Position numbers and translations under genes: made by a program. 64,000 bases of DNA from a bacterium 210917-SL.2.15. GTDB lineage: Bacteria; Bacillota; Clostridia; Oscillospirales; Oscillospiraceae. Below are positions 53,387 through 64,000 of this stretch, one piece after another. The stretch covers positions 24,742 to 88,741 of the forward strand of contig JAJCJC010000008.1 in NCBI GenBank assembly GCA_020555605.1, given 5' to 3'. Below the pieces are notes generated by a model. It made no database searches. It saw only the letters and a list, made by a program, of their open reading frames with translations, and had not been told where the DNA came from. Positions within the stretch are counted from its first letter, which is position 1. Each line of letters begins with the position of its first letter.

Positions 53387-53818
53387 ATGAGCGAAAAGAC
53401 AGAATTACTAAACTTTATCTATAAAAATGCCGATATGGGAGAGACGGCGATGCCGCTGGTGATCGGCATGGTGACCCGGCCGGATCTGCGCATGGTCTTA
53501 TGCGGCTGCCTGATGGATTATCGTGCCGTGGGCGGGGCGGCCAAAGAAACGCTACGGCGTTGCGGACACTGCCAGGAGGCCCCTGGGGTGATGAAAAAAG
53601 CGATGATGAAAACGGTTTTGCATTGGAACGCGGTGCTCTCTCCGCCGCCGCGGCACATTGCCGAGATGATGATCCGCGGTAGCACCATGGGCGCCATCCA
53701 GATGGGCAAACGCATCAATGCATATCGCTATACAGCGGGGGAAGAAGCATTGATGCTGGCAGAAAGGTTGCTGAAGGTGGAGGAGGACACCATTGAGCGG
53801 ATGAAGGGGTTTTTGTGA
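53387..53818 (+). CDS. Helical protein of unknown function, conserved in Clostridia
   Basis: A 143-residue, mainly helical, soluble protein. The N-terminus (MSEKTELLNFIYKNADMGE) and the motif HIAEMMIRGSTMGAIQMGKRI (about 86-106, given as its key residues H-I-A-E-M and G-S-T-M-G) look like a small conserved clostridial family with ferritin-like helix spacing, whose function I do not know. Three Cys and a His cluster (CGCLMDYR, RRCGHCQEAP) in the middle might bind metal. The ribosome site AAAGAGGTGA is strong. Its stop overlaps the beginning of the broken PucR-like gene, but they need not be linked. Confidence 0.7.
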   Translation: MSEKTELLNFIYKNADMGETAMPLVIGMVTRPDLRMVLCGCLMDYRAVGGAAKETLRRCGHCQEAPGVMKKAMMKTVLHWNAVLSPPPRHIAEMMIRGSTMGAIQMGKRINAYRYTAGEEALMLAERLLKVEEDTIERMKGFL

Positions 53819-54647: not shown

Positions 54648-54676
54648 AAAGTTGCACGTTCGCGTGCAACTTTTTT
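54648..54676 (+). terminator. Terminator at the left edge of the prophage structural module
   Basis: AAAGTTGCACG-TTCG-CGTGCAACTTT (54648-54673), a perfect 11-bp stem with UUCG loop and T-run, directly before the terminase genes. Confidence 0.93.
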
Positions 54677-54710
54677 GCGTTTTTGGGGGTGGGATGGAAG
54701 GAGGTTTTAC

Positions 54711-55193
54711 ATGAAAGGAACGGCATGGACACAGGAGAAGCTGGCCTTCTGCCGGGCATATCTGCAGGCGCCGGATGTGGAGCGGGCGGCGCAGTTGGCT
54801 GGGGTGGAGGATGGGTATGCGCTTCTGCGGCAAAAGGATGTGCAGCGCTATCTGATGAAGGCGCGCCAGGGCGCGCGGGACGCGATCCAGAGGGAAGATG
54901 TGGTGCGTTGTTTGTGCCGCCTTGCGTTTTCGAGGCCCAACGATGCGGTGGCGCTGGCCTGCGGCCAGAACTGCGGCAGCATCGAAAACATGGATTTGGC
55001 GGCGGTGGCGGAATTCAAGCACCGGGAAGGGCAGACGGAAGTCAAATTCCTGGACCGGGTGCGGGCGCTGCAGGCGCTGGGTGAGCTGCTGGGCGGCGGT
55101 GAAGGTGGGGATGACACGGCCCGGGCATTTTTCCAGGCGCTGGAGGATGCGGCGGGACCGTCGGAAAAACGGGGGAGCGATACGGTGGATTGA
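54711..55193 (+). CDS. Phage terminase small subunit
   Basis: A 160-residue protein, the DNA-recognition part of the packaging motor. It starts with the typical terminase-small HTH: WTQEKLAFCRAYLQAPDVER, then AAQLAGVEDGYALLRQKDV. The remainder is helical with an acidic C-terminus. The start ATG 54711 follows GGAAGGAGG. It is the first gene of the prophage late operon and overlaps the large subunit by 4 nt. The genes from here to 63.9 kb are all on the plus strand with minimal gaps, as expected for one late transcript. Confidence 0.88.
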   Translation: MKGTAWTQEKLAFCRAYLQAPDVERAAQLAGVEDGYALLRQKDVQRYLMKARQGARDAIQREDVVRCLCRLAFSRPNDAVALACGQNCGSIENMDLAAVAEFKHREGQTEVKFLDRVRALQALGELLGGGEGGDDTARAFFQALEDAAGPSEKRGSDTVD

Positions 55194-56440
55194 ACTTTTC
55201 AAGAAAACAGAAACAAGTGCTGACCTGGTGGTGTGCTGCATCGCCAGCCCATACCTACGATGCGCTGATCTGCGATGGAGCGGTGCGCAGCGGCAAGACC
55301 ATGTGCATGGCGCTGAGCTTTTTGTGCTGGGCCACGGCGTGCTTTGACGGAGCGCAGTTCGGCATCTGCGGCAAAAGCGTGAGCGGCGTGCGGCGCAATG
55401 TGGTGGCGGCGGTGGAACCGTGGCTGCGGCGGCTGGGACTGCGGTGGACAGAAAACCGCACGGAGCATTATCTGGAACTGGGCTGCTGCGGAAGGAGCAA
55501 CCGCTTCTATCTGTTCGGTGGATACGATGAGAAAAGTGCGGCGCTGATCCAAGGCATCACCTTTGCCGGCGTGCTGCTGGATGAGGCCGCGCTGATGCCG
55601 CGCTCTTTTGTGGAGCAGGCCTGCGCCCGTTGTTCCATGGAGGGGGCACGGTTATGGTTTAATTGCAACCCGGAAGGCCCGCAGCACTGGTTTTACCGGG
55701 AATGGATTTTGAAGGCACAAGAAAAAAACGCATTGCACCTGCATTTTACGATGGAGGATAACCCGACGCTGAGCGAAGCGGTGAAGCGGCGGTACCGAAA
55801 TTCCTATTCGGGGGCATTTTACCGGAGGTTTATTCTGGGCGAGTGGACCCAGGCCCAGGGGCTGGTGTATGACTTTTTCGACCGGGCAAAGGATTGTGCG
55901 CCGCCGATCCACGAGCCGTGCGAGCGGTATGCGGTGTCAGTGGATTATGGGACGGCGAATCCAGCGTCCTTCGGACTGTGGGGAAAACGCGGGGCGGCAT
56001 GGTACCGTATCAGCGAATATTATTACGCTTCCCGCCGGGAAGGGAGACAAAAAACCGACGCGGAATATGTGGAGGAGCTTTGGCGCCTGCTGGATGGACG
56101 CAGGCCGGAGGTGGTGGTCGTGGACCCATCGGCGGCCAGCTTTATTGAAGCGCTGCGGCGCACGGGACTGCGGGTACAGAAAGCGGACAACGACGTGCTA
56201 TGGGGCATCCGTGTGACGGCGGGTATGCTTAAGGAGAAAAAACTCATCCTTTGCAGCAACTGCGCTGATTGTTTGCGGGAGATGGAACTGTATTGCTGGG
56301 AAGAGGGTGCGGCGCGGGACGTTCCCCGTAAGGAGCACGACCACGCCATGGATGAGATGCGGTATTTTGCGGCATATCTTGCACGGCAGGAGCAGGGAGA
56401 TGGATTTTATGCCGCTGCTGTGGCCCGTCGGGCCGGATAA
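55190..56440 (+). CDS. Phage terminase large subunit (PBSX type)
   Basis: A 416-residue DNA-packaging ATPase and nuclease. Walker A is DGAVRSGKT (about 29-37) and Walker B is GVLLDEAAL (about 127-135). The RNase H-like nuclease shows VSVDYGTANPASFGLW (Asp about 245), VVVVDPSAAS and the C-terminal HDHAMDEMRY, which supply the acidic metal ligands. The start is TTG 55190, overlapping the small subunit stop. At the level of eye comparison it belongs to the PBSX/terminase_3 group, headful-like packaging; that last point is inference. Confidence 0.94.
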   Translation: MNFSRKQKQVLTWWCAASPAHTYDALICDGAVRSGKTMCMALSFLCWATACFDGAQFGICGKSVSGVRRNVVAAVEPWLRRLGLRWTENRTEHYLELGCCGRSNRFYLFGGYDEKSAALIQGITFAGVLLDEAALMPRSFVEQACARCSMEGARLWFNCNPEGPQHWFYREWILKAQEKNALHLHFTMEDNPTLSEAVKRRYRNSYSGAFYRRFILGEWTQAQGLVYDFFDRAKDCAPPIHEPCERYAVSVDYGTANPASFGLWGKRGAAWYRISEYYYASRREGRQKTDAEYVEELWRLLDGRRPEVVVVDPSAASFIEALRRTGLRVQKADNDVLWGIRVTAGMLKEKKLILCSNCADCLREMELYCWEEGAARDVPRKEHDHAMDEMRYFAAYLARQEQGDGFYAAAVARRAG

Positions 56441-56456
56441 AAAGGAGGGGGCAAGC

Positions 56457-57614
56457 ATGAGATTGAGAAAGAAACCGGAGCCGGGTGTGTCGGCGACAGT
56501 ACAGCTGCGCGCGGTATCCCGACAGCCCTTCGGCGCGCTGGAATCCTATGTGCCGCTGCACAACGGAGAAATTGCGCTGTATCGGGCGGTGCGGGAAGCG
56601 GTGCCGATCGTGGACGCGGCGCTGATGAAGATCATTCGTTTGGTGGGCGGCTTTGAGGTGCGGTGCGCGAACCGGACTGTGCAGGAGGAGCTGACACATT
56701 TCCTGCGGACGGTGCCGGTGGGTCGCGCACAGCGGGGACTGGATCATTTTCTGGAGCAGTATTTGGATTCCATGCTGACCTGTGGGCGGGCTGTAGGAGA
56801 GATTGTGCCCTGCAAAAGAGGCGGCGGCATCGCGGCGGTACTGTGTTCCGAGGCCGAGTCGGTGGAGGTGCGCGAGGGTGCCTCGCCGCTGGAATTTATG
56901 CTGTGTGTGCATGACGAAACCGGCGCGCTGCGGCCTGCGCCGCGGCAGGATCTATTGCTGTTTACGCCATTTAACCCGGAAAGCGGCAGTCCCTATGGCG
57001 TGTCACTGCTGCGCTCCATGCCATTTTTGACGGAGATTTTGCTTAAGATCTATCACGCGATCGGGCAGAACTGGGAACGTGTGGGAAACGTTCACTTTGC
57101 AGTGATTTATAAGCCGGAAGGGGACACTGACCGGACGCTGGCCAGGGAGCGCAGTGAACAGATTGCCCGGGAATGGGCTAGCGCCATGGAAAGCGCCAAG
57201 GGCGGCTATGTGCGCGACTTTGTAGCGGCGGGCAATGTGGATATCAAGGTAATTGGCGCAGACAATCAGGTACTGGACAGCGAAGTGCCGGTGCGGCAGG
57301 TCTTGGAGCAGCTGATCGCGCGGACGGGCATTCCGCCGTTTATGCTGGGACTGAACTGGTCGAGTACGGAGCGGATGAGTTCCCAGCAGGCGGATATGCT
57401 GACCACGGAGATGGATGCCATCCGGCGTACGCTGACGCCGGTGGTGGAAAAGGTGTGCCGGATGTGGCTGCGCGCGCAGGGCTATGCGTGTGATTTCGAA
57501 GTGGTGTGGGACACCATCAATTTGCAGGACGAGGTGGAGGACGCCAAAGCCCAGCTCTATCTGGAGCAGGCGCGCCAACTGCGGCTTGCCAACGACAAGG
57601 AGGAATTCGGATGA
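56457..57614 (+). CDS. Phage portal protein
   Basis: A 385-residue portal, the ring through which DNA enters the head. Features: ALYRAVREAVPIVDAALMKI near the N-terminus, YLDSMLTCGRAVGEIV, LLLFTPFNPESGSPYGVSLL, and LNWSSTERMSSQQADML near the end, matching portals of clostridial prophages. ATG 56457 follows AAAGGAGGGG. The open frame begins 150 nt upstream, inside the terminase gene, but those residues are an artefact. The stop overlaps the next gene as ATGA. I do not see a separate SPP1-type minor head gene next to it. Confidence 0.88.
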   Translation: MRLRKKPEPGVSATVQLRAVSRQPFGALESYVPLHNGEIALYRAVREAVPIVDAALMKIIRLVGGFEVRCANRTVQEELTHFLRTVPVGRAQRGLDHFLEQYLDSMLTCGRAVGEIVPCKRGGGIAAVLCSEAESVEVREGASPLEFMLCVHDETGALRPAPRQDLLLFTPFNPESGSPYGVSLLRSMPFLTEILLKIYHAIGQNWERVGNVHFAVIYKPEGDTDRTLARERSEQIAREWASAMESAKGGYVRDFVAAGNVDIKVIGADNQVLDSEVPVRQVLEQLIARTGIPPFMLGLNWSSTERMSSQQADMLTTEMDAIRRTLTPVVEKVCRMWLRAQGYACDFEVVWDTINLQDEVEDAKAQLYLEQARQLRLANDKEEFG

Positions 57615-58546
57615 GAGAGATTCAGAAAAGCCTGCCCCCGGAAACGCCGTGCGCGGAACAGGCAGCGGATATGGCGCGGATCAACGCGCTGGCCAAGAGG
57701 GAAATGACACCCGAAGAGGTATATACCTTTTCTGTGCGGCTGTGCGACAACGAAATCGACCGGGACGGAGAGCGCTTTGATGAACAGACGCTGCGGGAGC
57801 TGGCGGCGCTGTTTGTGGGGAAAAGCGGTATCTTTGACCACTGCTGGTCCGCTCGGGGACAGACGGCGCGCATTTACCGCGCGGAGGTATGCCGCGAGGA
57901 AGGGCGTACCACGGCGGCGGGGGATGGCTACTGCTATGTGAAAGCAATGGCCTATATGCCGCGCACCGAGGGAAACCAGGAGCTGATCGAAGAGATTGAA
58001 GCGGGCATCAAAAAAGAGGTGTCTGTGGGATGCCGTGTGCGTGCGGCGGTATGCTCGGTGTGCGGCGCGGCGCGGGGCGAATGCGAGCATGTGCATGGGA
58101 AGCGATATGACGGCAGGCTGTGCTATACGGAGCTGCGGGGAGCGGAGGATGCTTACGAATGGTCGTTCGTGGCGGTGCCGGCACAGCGGGAAGCCGGCGT
58201 GATGAAACGGTTTTCGCCCCAAACACGCCGGACGCTGAAGGCATTTCTGCGCACGGAAGGCCGCGAGGAAGCCCTAGCGGAGCTGGAACAGCTGGAATGG
58301 GAGGCGGCGCTGGGCAAACGCTATTTGAACCATTTGCGCAGGGAGACGCTGCACTATGCCTGCTTGGCGGAGCCGGAGCTGGACGAAAAGATTTTTGCGT
58401 CGGCCCTGCAAAAGCTCAGCGAAGGAGAACTTTTGGAGCTGAAACGGGTGTATCAGGCAAAAGAAGAGCGCGCGGCGGCACAGCCGCAGCTGTCCTATGG
58501 CGCGCGGGAGCAAAGCACGGCAGACGGCAGTGCATTTTTGATTTGA
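57611..58546 (+). CDS. Putative phage prohead/capsid maturation protease
   Basis: A 311-residue protein whose N-terminal half resembles phage prohead proteases: FSVRLCDNEIDRDGERFD, an FDHCWSARGQTARIYRAEV with a candidate catalytic His, and IKKEVSVGCRV with a candidate Ser. The middle has a Cys-rich insert (CSVCGAARGECEHVHGKRY) that may bind zinc. The C-terminal third is helical and Glu/Lys-rich, possibly a scaffold region that is cut away on maturation. It lies between the portal and capsid genes, which fits. ATG 57611 overlaps the portal stop. Confidence 0.75.
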   Translation: MREIQKSLPPETPCAEQAADMARINALAKREMTPEEVYTFSVRLCDNEIDRDGERFDEQTLRELAALFVGKSGIFDHCWSARGQTARIYRAEVCREEGRTTAAGDGYCYVKAMAYMPRTEGNQELIEEIEAGIKKEVSVGCRVRAAVCSVCGAARGECEHVHGKRYDGRLCYTELRGAEDAYEWSFVAVPAQREAGVMKRFSPQTRRTLKAFLRTEGREEALAELEQLEWEAALGKRYLNHLRRETLHYACLAEPELDEKIFASALQKLSEGELLELKRVYQAKEERAAAQPQLSYGAREQSTADGSAFLI

Positions 58547-58558
58547 GGAGGAGCGGAG

Positions 58559-58897
58559 ATGAACGTTTCGTATGAAGGGATCGGCGCGTGGAGCGCCACA
58601 TTTGAAACCGCGGATGCCCGAGAGGGCCAGGTGGTGAAGCTGAGTGCGCCGCGCACGGTGAGCCTGTGCACGGCGGGGGATGCTTTCTGCGGTGTAGCGG
58701 GGCCTGTGCGCGGCGGCGTATGCGGCGTACAGCTGGGCGGCCTGGCGGAGGTCAGCTACACCGGGACGGCACCCGGCGTGGGCAGCATTATTTTGACGGC
58801 CGACGGCAGCGGCGGCGTGTGTACGGCGGAGAGTGGAACAGCGTACTGGGTGCTGGCGGTGGATGAAAGCGCCGGACGCTGTGTGATCAAGCTTTAA
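58559..58897 (+). CDS. Putative phage head decoration / capsid-cement protein
   Basis: A 112-residue, Gly/Ala/Val-rich, beta-type protein: GQVVKLSAPRTVSLCTAGDAF and GLAEVSYTGTAPGVGSIILT resemble decoration proteins placed between protease and major capsid genes (lambda gpD-like position). The assignment depends mainly on size, composition and position. It has an AGGAGGAG ribosome site and is 13 nt ahead of the capsid gene. Confidence 0.65.
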   Translation: MNVSYEGIGAWSATFETADAREGQVVKLSAPRTVSLCTAGDAFCGVAGPVRGGVCGVQLGGLAEVSYTGTAPGVGSIILTADGSGGVCTAESGTAYWVLAVDESAGRCVIKL

Positions 58898-58910
58898 GGA
58901 GGAAGAAACG

Positions 58911-59945
58911 ATGGCATATCATTTTGACACGATAAAGCTGGAAAAGGGAATGTACGCCGAGAGCGGCAAGAGTTTTTCCTGCGTTTTGGAAGAACTGGAT
59001 CCCGGCGAGCAGTACCGCGGCACGGCGCTGGAGGGATTGGACGCGTATCAGCGCCAGCTTAAGCGCTTTGATATCAAGGTAAAAGGTGCGCTGAGCGATG
59101 TGGTGGAGAAGTTTTTCCACACTACGGAATCGGCAGTGCTGTTTCCGGAATTTGTGGCACGGGCGGTGCGTCAGGGCATGGAAGAGGAAAACCTTCTGCC
59201 CCATATTACCGCGGCGGTGACACAGTTTGATGGGATGGATTACCGCTCTATCGCTTCGGTGCCGACCAAAGAGGACAAGGCGCTGCGTGTGGTGGCCGAG
59301 GGCGCCGCGCTGCCGGAAACCACGGTGAGAGCGCAAAGCAGCCTGGTACGGCTGCACAAACGCGGCCGGATGCTGGTCGCTTCCTATGAGGCAATCCGTT
59401 TTCAGCGGCTGGATCTGTTTGCGGTGACGCTGCGCCAGATCGGAGCACACATTGCGCGGATGCATCTGGAGGACGCCATTGATGTGATCATGAAGGGCGA
59501 CGGAAACAACAATGCAGCCCAGAGTTATAAGATCGGCACGAAGCCCATTTCCGGCACGGCGGGCACCATGAGCTACAATGCGCTGCTGGACTTCTGGGCG
59601 CAGTTCGACCCGTATGAAATGAATACCATGCTGGTGAGCAGCGATGTGATGCTGGGTCTTCTGAAGCTGGAGGAATTCCAGAATCCGCTGACGGGCCTGA
59701 ATTTCCAGGGTACCGGTACTCTGACCACGCCTCTGGGCGCCACGCTGCTGCGCACTTCGGCTATGCCGGCAGGTACGATGATCGGCATGGATAAGAACTA
59801 TGCACTGGAGCGGATCACCAGCGGGGAGGTGCAGGTGGAGTACGACAAGCTGATTGACCGCCAGCTTCAGCGCGCGGCCATCACAAGCATTTCCGGCTTT
59901 GCCAAGCTTTATCAGGACGCGTCGAAGGTGCTGACGCTGCAGTAA
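58911..59945 (+). CDS. Phage major capsid protein
   Basis: A 344-residue protein, the probable main shell subunit of HK97 fold. The helical N-terminal arm (YAESGKSFSCVLEELDPGEQ) precedes AAVTQFDGMDYRSIASVP, HKRGRMLVASYEAIR, LEDAIDVIMKGDGNNNAA (an N-arm/E-loop style region) and the C-terminal IDRQLQRAAITSISGFAKLY. A strong AAGGAGGAA precedes the ATG. It is not split by a delta-domain, and the upstream protease gene suggests scaffold processing in trans. Confidence 0.88.
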   Translation: MAYHFDTIKLEKGMYAESGKSFSCVLEELDPGEQYRGTALEGLDAYQRQLKRFDIKVKGALSDVVEKFFHTTESAVLFPEFVARAVRQGMEEENLLPHITAAVTQFDGMDYRSIASVPTKEDKALRVVAEGAALPETTVRAQSSLVRLHKRGRMLVASYEAIRFQRLDLFAVTLRQIGAHIARMHLEDAIDVIMKGDGNNNAAQSYKIGTKPISGTAGTMSYNALLDFWAQFDPYEMNTMLVSSDVMLGLLKLEEFQNPLTGLNFQGTGTLTTPLGATLLRTSAMPAGTMIGMDKNYALERITSGEVQVEYDKLIDRQLQRAAITSISGFAKLYQDASKVLTLQ

Positions 59946-59975
59946 ACAAGCGCAGAGGAAACAGGAGGGACGGGA

Positions 59976-60341
59976 ATGGATATGGAAACAGAAATCCAGA
60001 CGCTGGCCCGAAGCATGACCGGCGCAGATCAGGAGGAGCAGGAGTATCTTGCGGCACTGTGCGCGGCACAGTGGGAACGAATTAGTCAAATGCTCCCGGA
60101 AGAGACGGAGCGCGGCTGCAGCCGCCTGATCTGCGCGGCGGCAAGCCTGGCCGCGGCGGATTATTTCAATGCCAAGGGCGCGGCGAGTACTGCTTCGTGG
60201 AGCGCCGGCGATGTGAGCGTACACAACCGAGATGGAGCATCCTGCGCTGCGGCAGCCAGAGAATTACGCGCTGCGGCAGAGCGGTTGTTGGCGCCGCTGT
60301 GCAGTGATGACGGCTTTGCCTTTTTGGGGGTGCGGGGATGA
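59976..60341 (+). CDS. Putative phage head-tail connector (gp6-like)
   Basis: A 121-residue helical protein between the capsid and the tail genes. The size, helical make-up (LARSMTGADQEEQEYLAALC, RLICAAASLAAADYFNAKG) and place fit gp6/gp15-like head completion proteins that bind below the portal. No sequence-specific motif was found. AGGAGGGA precedes ATG 59976. It overlaps the next gene as ATGA. Confidence 0.65.
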   Translation: MDMETEIQTLARSMTGADQEEQEYLAALCAAQWERISQMLPEETERGCSRLICAAASLAAADYFNAKGAASTASWSAGDVSVHNRDGASCAAAARELRAAAERLLAPLCSDDGFAFLGVRG

Positions 60342-60664
60342 CGGAATCGTTTGCTGACATCCTGCGGCAGTTTGGCGCGAGCGTGGAGATCGAGCACGCG
60401 AATGCATCCGTGCAGACGAGGGCGTTTGTGCAGATGATCCGGCGCCAGGAGACCAAAGAGCCCCGGGAGGAAACCAATTTCGGCGCGGCGGACCTGCGGC
60501 GCTGGCTGTATATCGGGCCGAAGGAGCAGCCGCTGCAGGCGGGAGATAAAGTGCGCGCCGGCGACGCCGTGTATGTGGCGCAGCATGCGGCGGCTATCTA
60601 TGTGGGGGCGGAAAAATCCCACTGGTGGGGTATTCTGCGGCCGGAGAGAGAGGCCCTGGCATGA
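60338..60664 (+). CDS. Putative phage head-closure or stopper protein
   Basis: A 108-residue protein of mixed structure, with a DLRRWLYIGPKEQPLQAGD and VRAGDAVYVAQHAAAIYVG stretch typical of small beta-barrel connector proteins. The name is based on gene order (after the gp6-like protein and before the tail terminator). ATGA overlaps on both sides show tight translational coupling. Confidence 0.55.
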   Translation: MTESFADILRQFGASVEIEHANASVQTRAFVQMIRRQETKEPREETNFGAADLRRWLYIGPKEQPLQAGDKVRAGDAVYVAQHAAAIYVGAEKSHWWGILRPEREALA

Positions 60665-61161
60665 GTGCGGGGACGGAGACGGTGCGCGCCCGGCTGGCGC
60701 AGGCATTGGAAGCGCGGGGAATTCCCACGGCGCGGGCTTGGGACAGAACGGCGCTGCCGGCCCTTTCCGGCGCGGCGGCAGTGGTAGGTGTGCAGGAGAC
60801 GCAAAGCGGTGCTGCGGCACTCTGGAACTATCTTGGCCAGCAGTGGGAGGCGGAGCTGGGCGAAATAGTGGAACGCTACGGCCGGGCGCTGGAGCTGAAA
60901 CTGTATGTGGACTTTTATGCGCCGCGCGGAAGCGCGGCAGAGATCGAAAAGGGCTTTGAAGCGTTGGAGGAGGTTTTGCTCGCGCCCCTGGCGGAAGGGC
61001 TGCGGGCAGATGCGGTGCAGCGCGGCGAGATTGGCGCTGACGGCAAAAGCGGATATCTTAAGGGGCGGTGCACCGTGGCGTGCCGGGCCTATTTCACAGC
61101 GGTGCGTGCCGAAGAGGGCGCGGCACTAACGGATTTTCATTTGAAAGGTGTGGTGCAATGA
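60661..61161 (+). CDS. Putative phage tail terminator / tail completion protein
   Basis: A 166-residue protein directly before the sheath gene, the usual place for the protein that ends tail-tube growth. It has an alpha/beta look with LKLYVDFYAPRGSAAEIEKG in the middle. No diagnostic motif was found. ATG 60661 overlaps the previous stop; the frame is open further upstream within the preceding gene, which I treat as shadow. Its stop overlaps the sheath start. Confidence 0.55.
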   Translation: MSAGTETVRARLAQALEARGIPTARAWDRTALPALSGAAAVVGVQETQSGAAALWNYLGQQWEAELGEIVERYGRALELKLYVDFYAPRGSAAEIEKGFEALEEVLLAPLAEGLRADAVQRGEIGADGKSGYLKGRCTVACRAYFTAVRAEEGAALTDFHLKGVVQ

Positions 61162-62228
61162 ACAGCACAGTAATTCATGAGCGGCCGGGGGTGTACTCTT
61201 CCTATGATGCTTCTTCAGCCATCAGCGGCGGCGCGGCCAAAAAGGTGATCGGTGTGGCAGCACGGGCTGCGAAAGGAGAGGCAAACAAAACCGTTCGCCT
61301 CACGAGCTATGCCGCGGGTGTGAACGCCTTTGGCGAGGACAATGAGAGCAGTGCCATGGAGGGATTGCTGCGGCTGCTGTATCAAAACGGCGCGGCAGCA
61401 GTGGCGGCGGTGGCAGTGGCGGCTTCGGCGGAAAAGGAGGACTATGAAGCGGCATTTAACGCGCTGAGTGCACAGGAGGATGTGGGTATCGTGGTGTGCG
61501 ACAGCGCGGATACAGGGGTTTTGCAGGCGCTGCGCGACAATGTGACAGCGGCTTCTGGTGCGCGTCGGGAACGTATTGCCGTGGCCGGCAGCGAGGAGGA
61601 AACCGTGAGCGCCATGATTGAGCAAGCCGAGGCTCTCAACTGCGAACGTATGGTTCTTCTGGGCGGCCGGGCATTGGATACCGGCGGCAAAACGCTGAGC
61701 GGCCCGGCAGCTGCGGCAGCAGTGGCGGGGGTAATCGCGGCCACCGCCGATCCGGCGCTTCCCCTCAACGGCGCGCCGCTGGAGGGCATGAGCGGTGTGG
61801 CAGCAGATTTCAGCGACGATGAGATCGATCTGCTGGTGCGCGGCGGCGTGACGCCGCTGGAGAGCAATGCGGGGATCGTCAGCACGGTGCGCGGTGTGAC
61901 CACCCGCACCACCACCGGAGGAGCAGGAGACAACACTTGGCGCGAGTTGAGCACAGTGCTGATTGTGGACAATGTGATTCCCCAGATCCGCAGCACGCTG
62001 CGCAGAACCTTCAGCCGGGCCAAGAACACGGCGCAGACCCGCAGCGCCGTGCGCTCCCGGGTGATCGTGGAGCTGGAAAACAAACGCCAGGCAGAGATTA
62101 TCGACAGTTACGGCGATGTGACGGTACGCGCTTCGGAAGAGAATGCCACGGTGTGCGAGGTGGAGTTTTCCTTTGCGGTGGCCCACGGGCTGAATCAGAT
62201 CTATCTGACAGCGCACATCACGATTTGA
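61158..62228 (+). CDS. Phage contractile tail sheath protein
   Basis: A 356-residue sheath protein, which shows that this is a contractile-tailed (myovirus-like) prophage. The N-terminus (HERPGVYSSYDASSAI) is the typical sheath start, the middle (VGIVVCDSADTGVLQALRD; variable, Ala-rich) forms the exposed domain, and the end has LSTVLIVDNVIPQIRSTLRR and the final AEIIDSYGDVTVRASEEN..FSFAVAHGLNQIYLT, as in XkdK-like sheaths. ATG 61158 overlaps the previous gene as ATGA. The tube gene follows immediately. Confidence 0.92.
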   Translation: MNSTVIHERPGVYSSYDASSAISGGAAKKVIGVAARAAKGEANKTVRLTSYAAGVNAFGEDNESSAMEGLLRLLYQNGAAAVAAVAVAASAEKEDYEAAFNALSAQEDVGIVVCDSADTGVLQALRDNVTAASGARRERIAVAGSEEETVSAMIEQAEALNCERMVLLGGRALDTGGKTLSGPAAAAAVAGVIAATADPALPLNGAPLEGMSGVAADFSDDEIDLLVRGGVTPLESNAGIVSTVRGVTTRTTTGGAGDNTWRELSTVLIVDNVIPQIRSTLRRTFSRAKNTAQTRSAVRSRVIVELENKRQAEIIDSYGDVTVRASEENATVCEVEFSFAVAHGLNQIYLTAHITI

Positions 62229-62247
62229 GAAAAGGAGGGGGATGGAC

Positions 62248-62637
62248 ATGGAAGTTTCGGGATTTCCCACCAGCAGCGATATTTATCTTGAGGTGGAAGG
62301 GAAAAAGGTGGCCGTGGTGCAGAGCTATACAGCCAAGGCCAGCAAGACCAGCCAGAGCGTGGAGGCTTTCGGCGAGAGTGAGCCGGTGGCGATCCTGCCG
62401 GGGCAGACCCAATACAGCCTGACACTTAAGCGCCTGTACGCCACGGATGAGGCCATCAGCGACGGAATCAACTTTTACGATTTGGCAGACTTTTCTCTGG
62501 TGATCTGCAAGCCGGACCGCAAAGTGATCTACAGCGGCTGCCAGTGGGGCAGCATTGCCGAGGAAGGACAGCTGGGTGCCATGGTGGCCGAAAGCGTGAC
62601 GGTGCTGGCGGCCAAGCGCATGGAGGTGGCAGCCTGA
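62248..62637 (+). CDS. Phage tail tube protein (XkdM-like)
   Basis: A 129-residue protein following the sheath, which is the fixed order in PBSX-like phages. It is beta-rich: IYLEVEGKKVAVVQSYTAKA, the conserved centre EPVAILPGQTQYSLTLKRLY and DFSLVICKPDRKVIYSGCQW. Two ATGs (62242, 62248) are possible; the second is chosen because AGGAGGGGG directly abuts the first. The stop overlaps the following chaperone gene by one base (TGATG). Confidence 0.85.
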   Translation: MEVSGFPTSSDIYLEVEGKKVAVVQSYTAKASKTSQSVEAFGESEPVAILPGQTQYSLTLKRLYATDEAISDGINFYDLADFSLVICKPDRKVIYSGCQWGSIAEEGQLGAMVAESVTVLAAKRMEVAA

Positions 62638-62996
62638 TGGAAAAAGCGCTGTATCGGCTTTTCAATGAGGAGCGGGCGCGGGATTTTACGCTGCGAGGCC
62701 AAAATGTGCGCATGGTACTGCTGAGCGCCGCGGAGCTGCTGGAGCTGCGCGCCAAAGAGCGCGCAGAGGAAGGCGGCGACGCTTTTTTCGATGGCCTGCG
62801 CGGCTGTGCGGCCCTGGTGGCCCGTTGCTTGAAGGTTTGCGGTGCACCGGTCTTTCGAAGCACCCGGGAGGTGCTGCAGACGCTGAGCGCGGAGGAGATC
62901 AACGCTGTGGCGGCGGCCTACAGTGCGTGGAGCCGGGAGATTGACCCTGGGTTCGACTGCGGTGAAGAGACCGTCGAAGTGCTAAAAAAAGTTTGA
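62637..62996 (+). CDS. Phage tail assembly chaperone, upstream frame
   Basis: A 119-residue protein (MEKALYRLFNEERARDF..) in the position of XkdN/gpG-type chaperones, which coat the tape measure during tail assembly and are not in the virion. Its last codons CTA AAA AAA GTT TGA contain seven A residues (62984-62990), a -1 slippery site of form A_AAA_AAA. A ribosome slipping back one base continues into the next frame (AGT TTG AGG..). Thus two products are predicted: the short form and a fused form of about 213 residues. Confidence 0.85.
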   Translation: MEKALYRLFNEERARDFTLRGQNVRMVLLSAAELLELRAKERAEEGGDAFFDGLRGCAALVARCLKVCGAPVFRSTREVLQTLSAEEINAVAAAYSAWSREIDPGFDCGEETVEVLKKV

Positions 62997-63037
62997 GGCA
63001 CGCGCCGGAAGAGCGGCTGCGCTGGCGCGTGCTCAAA
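62984..63037 (+). promoter_or_regulatory. Predicted -1 programmed ribosomal frameshift signal
   Basis: The slippery heptamer A_AAA_AAA (62984-62990) is followed after 8 nt by a hairpin: CACGCGCC (62999-63006) with GGCGCGTG (63024-63031), extended by TTTGAG (62992-62997) with CTCAAA (63032-63037) across one bulged G. Loop 17 nt. The stem covers the zero-frame stop (62994-62996). Confidence 0.75.
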
Positions 63038-63286
63038 CAATTCGGCGTTTTGCCCGGAGAGAAACGGGCAAAACGCATGACACGGCGGGAGCTGCTGTAC
63101 TGCGTTTTGCAGCAACAGCTGGATGGTGAAGAGGTACTTTCTGAACTTTGCCCGGTATGCCGTGCCGCAGCTATGGAGCGGCGGTGCACCGTTTGCGGCG
63201 CGCTGCTGGCGGATACGGAAGGGACGGAGAACACGGCGTTTGACTGGGAACGTTATCAAAACATGAAAGAGGGAAGATCCGTTTGA
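62993..63286 (+). CDS. Phage tail assembly chaperone, downstream (-1) frame extension
   Basis: The frame (97 residues if read from its first TTG) is offset by -1 from the preceding gene and overlaps its stop by 4 nt. It has no ribosome site in a good position other than the A-rich slippery run, so it is probably made only as the C-terminal part of the frameshift product, joining after the Lys codons. It contains four Cys in a zinc-finger-like array, CPVCRAAAMERRCTVC, which is interesting for a T-like extension that should bind the tape measure or tube. Independent initiation at TTG is possible but less likely. Confidence 0.75.
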   Translation: MRHAPEERLRWRVLKQFGVLPGEKRAKRMTRRELLYCVLQQQLDGEEVLSELCPVCRAAAMERRCTVCGALLADTEGTENTAFDWERYQNMKEGRSV

Positions 63287-63876
63287 CATATTGGAGGGCA
63301 CTGGAGAAACGTAGTAAGATTCTCTGGCAGGCGCTGTTCAGTCAAAGCGCTTTGATTGAGCGGGGCGTGTCAGTTTACATAGATACCCGTGCCGTACCGC
63401 AGGGTGCGGAGGGGGAGGGGCAGGCGGCTGCAACGCCACCTGCCCCGGAGGAAACAGCATGGATGGCAGACGCAGCGGCAGAAACGCTGCAGCTGCCGGA
63501 CGGTCAAAGAGATACCGCTGCTGCGTGGGTGCTTCCGGCAGCGGCGCGGAAAAAGCCGTCGAAGGATGCGGAAGAACGGGCGCTGCCGGACGGCATGCAG
63601 ATGGGAACGGGACGTTTGGATGAAACGTTCGGCAACCGGACGCCGGAGGGAAGGGATGAATTCGTTTTGGCTTCCGATGCCGGTGCGGCGCGGCTGCTGG
63701 AAGAGCTGCGGCAGATCGAACGGAGCGGTGCACCGCTGATCCGGCAGGGCAGGCATGCGGCTGCAGCGGAAGAAAACGAGCTGAGCAGCCCGGTGGTGGG
63801 GGCAGAAATGGCGGATTGGTCAGCCTGGTTGGAACGGGATGCCCGCCGTTACGACGGCGGTTTTGAACTGATGTAA
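63283..63876 (+). CDS. Phage protein of unknown function
   Basis: A 197-residue protein starting at TTG 63283 (GAGGGAAGAT upstream, overlapping the previous stop). The first 35 residues are basic and partly hydrophobic. The middle is Ala/Pro/Glu-rich with low complexity (about 40-95), and the end has ARLLEELRQIERSG and WSAWLERDARRYDGGFELM. I recognise no domain. A tape-measure gene is expected in this position, but this protein is far too short and lacks the long helical region; a tail accessory protein is possible. Confidence 0.7.
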   Translation: MTYWRALEKRSKILWQALFSQSALIERGVSVYIDTRAVPQGAEGEGQAAATPPAPEETAWMADAAAETLQLPDGQRDTAAAWVLPAAARKKPSKDAEERALPDGMQMGTGRLDETFGNRTPEGRDEFVLASDAGAARLLEELRQIERSGAPLIRQGRHAAAAEENELSSPVVGAEMADWSAWLERDARRYDGGFELM

Positions 63877-64000
63877 GTCCAATGGTATTAAGTCAAGAGG
63901 GTGATGCAAGAAAAAATTGAGTAAAACAGTGCACAAAGCAGGATGTCGGCAGAAAAAAGGCAACACCAACCAAAGCCCTGTCCCCTAAGATTTTTTGAAA

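Follow-up and report, generated by a model that had tools for sequence, protein, structure and literature searches.

A predicted programmed -1 ribosomal frameshift joining a tail assembly chaperone to a four-cysteine extension in phage-like gene clusters of Oscillospiraceae

The stretch analysed here, 64,000 nucleotides of contig JAJCJC010000008.1 from the Oscillospiraceae bacterium 210917-SL.2.15 (hereafter the window, whose positions are used throughout), contains a phage-like gene cluster in which two overlapping reading frames, A and B, can be assigned with high confidence to a tail assembly chaperone of the G/GT type that would be made by a -1 slip and whose -1 extension carries four invariant cysteines. 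In all probability the two frames are joined by a programmed slip of the ribosome, one base backward, a device that is itself of a known type; no description of the cluster or of a cysteine-bearing chaperone extension was found in the open-licence literature. The surroundings of the frameshift are, moreover, of greater interest than the frameshift itself.

The junction and its conservation among relatives

A begins with an ATG at 62637 and ends in GTG CTA AAA AAA GTT TGA, and B lies exactly -1 relative to it (Table 1). A preliminary description, made from the letters of the window alone, had reported this end of A (CTA AAA AAA GTT TGA, with an in-phase A_AAA_AAA), a next open frame in exactly the -1 phase and the lack of a ribosome site belonging to B, and all three are borne out, the sole possible start of B before its residue 9 being a TTG at 62993 for which a scan gave no Shine-Dalgarno-like match.

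Relatives were gathered with the upstream tail tube gene as the query; when viral contigs were scanned directly with A, no relative came up. From the matches, 80 of 115 viral-contig loci and 80 of 270 genome-contig loci were taken, and two phage records and three loci found via B were added; the genome loci are titled, among others, Oscillibacter, Flavonifractor, Pseudoflavonifractor, Dysosmobacter, Ca. Pseudoscilispira and other Oscillospiraceae or Clostridia. Profiles of A and B, whose seeds were drawn from loci with an A-run, the run itself being no criterion of class, divide the 166 loci (window included) into 56 with a full B at -1, 65 with A only, 27 with neither, eight with part of B and ten too short to classify, that is, with fewer than 700 bases after the tube gene (L051, which has a further shift within B, was excluded as short). 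The 56 frameshift-type loci comprise 39 of viral or phage origin, 16 from genomes and the window, and in every one of them a heptamer stands in phase at the junction, as A_AAA_AAA in 48 loci and as A_AAA_AAC in eight, against a chance background in which runs of at least seven A's occur only 16 times per 395,654 bases elsewhere in the clusters. After reduction by shared words, 48 non-redundant frameshift loci were retained. Taken together, the relatives are strong support for a programmed -1 frameshift as the predicted reading of this junction.

Could B be a separate gene, with a start of its own or coupled to the stop of A? The TTG at 62993 does overlap the end of A in the window, and seven of 60 genomes (six by profile, one by eye) have a B-like half that starts on its own in the absence of A, yet 29 of the 48 non-redundant relatives have no ATG, GTG or TTG between the upstream stop and residue 9 of B, and a Shine-Dalgarno-like match of at least five bases precedes any upstream start in only four of the 48 (in L062, six codons before B). 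Furthermore, the zero frame of A continues for 29 codons beyond the heptamer in 33 of the 48, where coupling of stop and start at the junction is therefore impossible. A separate B is thus highly improbable.

The hairpin after the heptamer

The 70 nucleotides 3' of the heptamer fold with a predicted energy of -36 kcal/mol (z -3.39; none of 200 shuffles as stable), and the best fold in the window, which covers the stop of A, is a stem of 15 base pairs that begins at 62991, contains a single-base bulge and has four further inner pairs. The G+C-rich hairpin over the stop that had been noted in advance is thereby confirmed; its dimensions were first given as 8 base pairs, 8 nucleotides downstream, extendable to 14, and the part kept in relatives is 10 base pairs after a 6-nucleotide spacer. 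This stem, GAGCACRCGCC / GGCGYGTGCTC, is found 6 nucleotides past the heptamer in most of the 48 non-redundant loci, with 95.2% of cells paired in a set of 36 sequences, which was picked after the divergence of two groups was seen, and 87.0% in all 48. Two-sided changes affect three pairs in the set of 36 and four in the 48, and the covariation scores (0.134 and 0.128, respectively) exceed those of all 500 shuffles in both sets; a partner slid by +2 columns scores close to this (0.111 and 0.114) but pairs in only 51.0 and 48.1% of cells.

Given that the stem lies in coding sequence, it was also compared with a null in which synonymous codons were shuffled and amino acids held: on average 10.4 of 12 pairs are observed against 8.1 expected, and p 0.05 is reached in 30 of 48 loci. 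Judged by pairs, the stem does not rise above this null in the window (p 0.23), L086 or L087; judged by energy, that of the window does (p 0.02). A predicted downstream stimulatory structure of the kind that characterises -1 programmed frameshifts is hence present, namely a 10-base-pair stem with a 6-nucleotide spacer and covariation, and the heptamer in all 56 loci, the stem and the coding selection on the -1 frame described below uphold the original proposal that the two frames are joined in this way.

The stem is absent from four loci with nine A's among the 48 tested. This nine-A subgroup consists of L054, L055, L057 and L060, which were tested and all lack the hairpin, and the genomes G094, G282, G189 and G164; on the cluster tree the in-frame genomes G243, G258 and G292, discussed below, group with the nine-A genomes. 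Runs of A are well-known sites of slippage, and these four loci are the ones that would suit a joined protein made by transcriptional slippage on the run instead of ribosomal slipping. Most loci, however, the window among them, have only seven A's, and eight of the 56 have the interrupted A_AAA_AAC, which should favour polymerase slippage less; the heptamer is also held in phase, and a covarying stem stands at fixed spacing in most loci. Transcriptional slippage is, on balance, improbable.

The proteins A and B

Downstream of the junction, the ratio of nonsynonymous to synonymous differences (pN/pS, from 319 non-independent pairs) stands at 0.33 for the -1 frame, and the zero frame gives 1.30 and the third frame 1.52; for A upstream of the junction it is 0.46. 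Purifying selection acts on the -1 frame. The mean column identity between loci is likewise higher in B (68%) than in A (57%).

A resembles the HK97 tail assembly chaperone in a fold search (2ob9; also YqbN, 3klu), with 12-13% identity over an alignment that covers A alone, and its top fold matches are the tail chaperone of Bacillus phage G, on the A side by fold only. The extension of phage G matches residues 2-50 of a relative's B with 35% identity in a search of the collection (expectation value, E, 2e-3), and on this match the first half of the -1 extension is homologous to that of phage G. The tail-chaperone identity first proposed for the pair is accordingly sustained on both sides of the shift, by the fold of A and by phage G gp181/gp182. 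Pfam, PHROGs and NCBIfam gave no firm match for A, B or the downstream gene, and neither did a profile search of A against PDB sequences (no match) nor a fold search with B (no convincing one). A B profile retrieved 573 proteins from the protein database; the 120 listed are without Pfam domains and are called as short, separate proteins, and they brought no further context.

The four cysteines of B, arranged in two CxxC pairs and already pointed out as a cluster in the preliminary description, are invariant in 48 of 48 sequences, including the window. They may bind zinc, as the pattern suggests; the best profile match is Nop10 (E 0.063), and a weak one to Pfam RUBY_RBDX reaches 0.00099, below its cut-off.

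In the proposed mechanism, most ribosomes would terminate at the end of A, and a minority, with two lysine tRNAs bound at A_AAA_AAA and delayed by the hairpin, would slip back one base into B and make an A-B fusion. By analogy with phage lambda, A may bind a tape-measure-like protein and the extension may recruit tube subunits, the recurrent NxxFDxxRF tail being the piece that would be delivered to the tube. The slipping itself, its rate and the partners of each half are what we infer from the above.

Loss of the frameshift layout

The junction is not the only arrangement in the family. By profile, 60 cluster genomes (a sample that overlaps the genome-contig loci) divide into 26 with the frameshift, eight with A and B in one frame, ten with A only, six with part of B only and ten with neither, one of the last (G119) having been shifted by hand to the class with half of B. 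The in-frame cases, among which G049 has only half of B and G018 is far diverged, have no A-run of six or more at the junction. That all loci with both domains are -1 was considered and rejected on account of these eight cases in the family-wide sample.

Placed on a tree of RpoB from 53 genomes, the distribution of the five layouts takes 7 changes, as opposed to 27.4 when labels are shuffled, and that of the in-frame label by itself takes 4. On the cluster tree, six of the eight fusions fall within the frameshift clade, and the window and L086 group with A-only and no-A genomes (support 100), which themselves stand together at 88; because the window and L086 lie outside this subgroup and within the larger group, the frameshift probably predates the split. 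The frameshift layout thus appears to have been replaced several times within the family, by in-frame fusion and by truncation.

It might be asked whether A and B are instead the functionless remnant of a decayed, once-fused gene. The in-frame layouts (8 of 60) and the fact that, unlike in its relatives, no LysM gene is seen after 63876 in the window would agree with this, and the probability of such decay is still close to negligible: the -1 relation and the heptamer are retained over 48 distinct loci, relaxed selection is not seen in either part, and the fusions nested in the frameshift clade are read as losses of the frameshift.

A-only genes end in NPAFDxxRF-like tails that resemble the C-terminus of B, and no-A genomes have a similar tail close to the beginning of the downstream protein. 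The likeness was seen by eye and is weakly backed by profiles in a few loci, so that the presumed homology of these tails across layouts is to be taken as a strong lead, not as a result. In L080, L071, G155, G121, G010, G141, G054, G024 and G119 there is a B-like part that has neither an A with it nor the four-cysteine cluster; in L080 and the G genomes this part starts on its own, close to the stop of the tube gene.

Gene content of the cluster

The core of about 13 kb comprises terminase small and large subunits, portal, a 308-residue head gene, a decoration candidate, capsid, connectors, sheath, tube, chaperone, the gene in the tape-measure position, a LysM protein and baseplate genes, some of these names being assigned by position. 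In a comparison of the window with 32 other genome loci with full flanks (seven displayed), homologues of the terminase large subunit, sheath and tube genes occur in all 32, those of portal, capsid and baseplate genes in 29-31, those of small head genes in 13-30 and those of flanking genes in 0-12.

Table 1. Positions of the features of the frameshift junction and of the surrounding gene cluster in the window.
Feature	Position	Strand	Remarks
A	62637-62996	+	zero-frame tail assembly chaperone, 119 residues; stop TGA 62994-62996
Slippery heptamer A_AAA_AAA	62984-62990	+	in phase with A
B	62990-63286	+	-1 frame extension, 98 residues after the slip; stop 63284-63286
Predicted stimulatory RNA hairpin	62991-63038	+	family-wide stem 62997-63006 paired with 63024-63033
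Four-cysteine cluster CPVC...CTVC in B	63149-63196	+	C54, C57, C66, C69; putative metal binding, from the pattern only
C-terminal motif NxxFDxxR(Y/F) of B	63230-63265	+	conserved within B; seen by eye in other layouts of the family
Terminase small subunit	54675-55193	+	PF03592 4.4e-9; start codon uncertain
Terminase large subunit, PBSX family	55190-56440	+	TIGR01547 8.9e-50, above cut-off
Portal protein	56457-57614	+	phrog_30703 6e-174
Major capsid protein	58911-59945	+	PF25209 8.7e-16; phrog_3922 6.6e-117
Tail sheath protein	61158-62228	+	PF17482 4.3e-11; PF04984 2.2e-10; phrog_279 1e-39
Tail tube protein	62242-62637	+	by position after the sheath; phrog_27038, unnamed
Tape-measure-position gene	63283-63876	+	197 residues, C-terminus RRYDGGF; no firm family match

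In phage lambda the gene order is tube, then chaperone; here the tube gene stands directly before A, and the gene after B has no tape-measure match. This gene is highly variable, 144-412 residues from stop to stop in the relatives (found in 187 of 226 loci), and has RRYDxGF at its C-terminus. The cluster shows no long tape measure, and since the protein in this position is so small, the tail may be very short, which could be the reason why the ratio of the two chaperone products can be given up.

A LysM motif follows the tape-measure-position gene at a median of 35 nucleotides among the 133 relatives with a located motif (52 have none located), and no LysM gene is seen in the last 124 bases of the window (63877-64000), up to its end, although in most of those relatives it begins within a shorter distance. 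Over these bases the G+C fraction falls from about 0.66 to 0.41. An insertion or rearrangement after 63876 is possible; the AT-richer stretch had no match in viral contigs or plasmids. At the other end, a small gene upstream of the cluster is common to the window (53387-53818) and L086 (431-868) and to no other full-flank locus, hinting at a common chromosomal site.

Inheritance of the cluster

Is the cluster an ordinary small mobile temperate prophage, or an element inherited with its host? The cluster of the window (54675-63876) is also present in loci L086-L165 and L196-L255. It has packaging, head and tail genes, its flanking genes vary between loci and many copies come from viral contig collections, as would be expected of a mobile prophage. 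Nevertheless, a tube match is present in 111 of 300 genomes sampled from the family, weakly so in three (E about 1e-13), and it is the single one in 110 of the 111, the other having a second, 20-residue match on another contig. No integrase was found within 39 kb of the cluster in nine genomes, among the matches listed of 237, and outside the core no gene recurs in more than 12 of the 32 other loci (seven loci displayed; replication genes were not searched by family).

The trees weigh against mobility as well. Of 50 splits, a tree built on six cluster proteins has 32 in common with the RpoB tree, itself made from motif-checked frames (53 genomes; G023, G068, G055, G210, G235 and G292 lie outside the comparison, and G255 has no usable RpoB), and the mean of 200 shuffles is 0.25 and the largest 2; the path distances of both correlate at 0.865, and the largest of 500 permutations gave 0.17, so that the congruence is judged against shuffles and not against a known mobile prophage gene. 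The layout classes, too, track the RpoB tree. The 189 genomes without a tube match speak for mobility in so far as they are partly scattered: when 37 of them were added to the tree (3 of 40 having been dropped for want of a usable RpoB), the absence, which draft genomes may exaggerate by missing genes, was part clade-wise and part scattered, with 15 changes. A mobile prophage is on this evidence unlikely, though deserving of attention, and the pattern fits long vertical inheritance with losses.

The cluster resembles a gene transfer agent (GTA) and is perhaps one. GTA-like packaging has been described in Ruminococcaceae, Oscillospiraceae and Christensenellaceae, with an operon in Faecalibacterium; four metagenome-assembled genomes, including Onthomonas and Gemmiger, were searched and a strong candidate came from one, Faecalibacterium (PMC12946183). 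We tentatively suggest, with somewhat less than even confidence, that the cluster may be an undescribed contractile, very short-tailed GTA of Oscillospiraceae and a source candidate for the packaging seen there without an operon, in which a tape-measure gene shrunk to about 150-400 residues would have made the chaperone ratio dispensable and allowed its loss several times by in-frame fusion or truncation, NxxFDxxRF being the minimal tube-recruiting part.

Significance

Frameshift, in-frame fusion and stripped-down forms coexist in one homologous family on a host-like tree, which amounts to a natural experiment on when the product ratio matters. The layouts also separate dispensable parts of the extension (the cysteine cluster and the helical half) from a recurring one, the C-terminal motif. 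And, if the cluster is a GTA, it provides a candidate gene set for the DNA packaging reported in gut Oscillospiraceae.

Comparison with known systems

The arrangement is like that of phage lambda G/GT, a zero-frame chaperone with a -1 extension, although lambda gave no match in the searches made. In the lambda model, G binds the tape measure, the T extension binds the tube and the ratio of the products is crucial (PMC5009743), whereas here whole lineages do without the frameshift layout. A close known likeness in build is that of gp181/gp182 of Bacillus phage G (JN638751), annotated as a join of two pieces, with an in-phase A_AAA_AAC followed by a stop and a -1 extension; the phage G extension is longer (255 residues) and, by eye, lacks the four-cysteine cluster, and only in phage G is a very large adjacent gene annotated as tapemeasure (112076-120757). 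Lastly, compared by description, the cluster is like the element FpGTA in being a compact set of terminase, portal and capsid genes from gut Ruminococcaceae, reported to be without replication genes. FpGTA is, however, most likely podovirus-like and set out in two operons (PMC12946183), while sheath, tube and baseplate genes stand here in one cluster.
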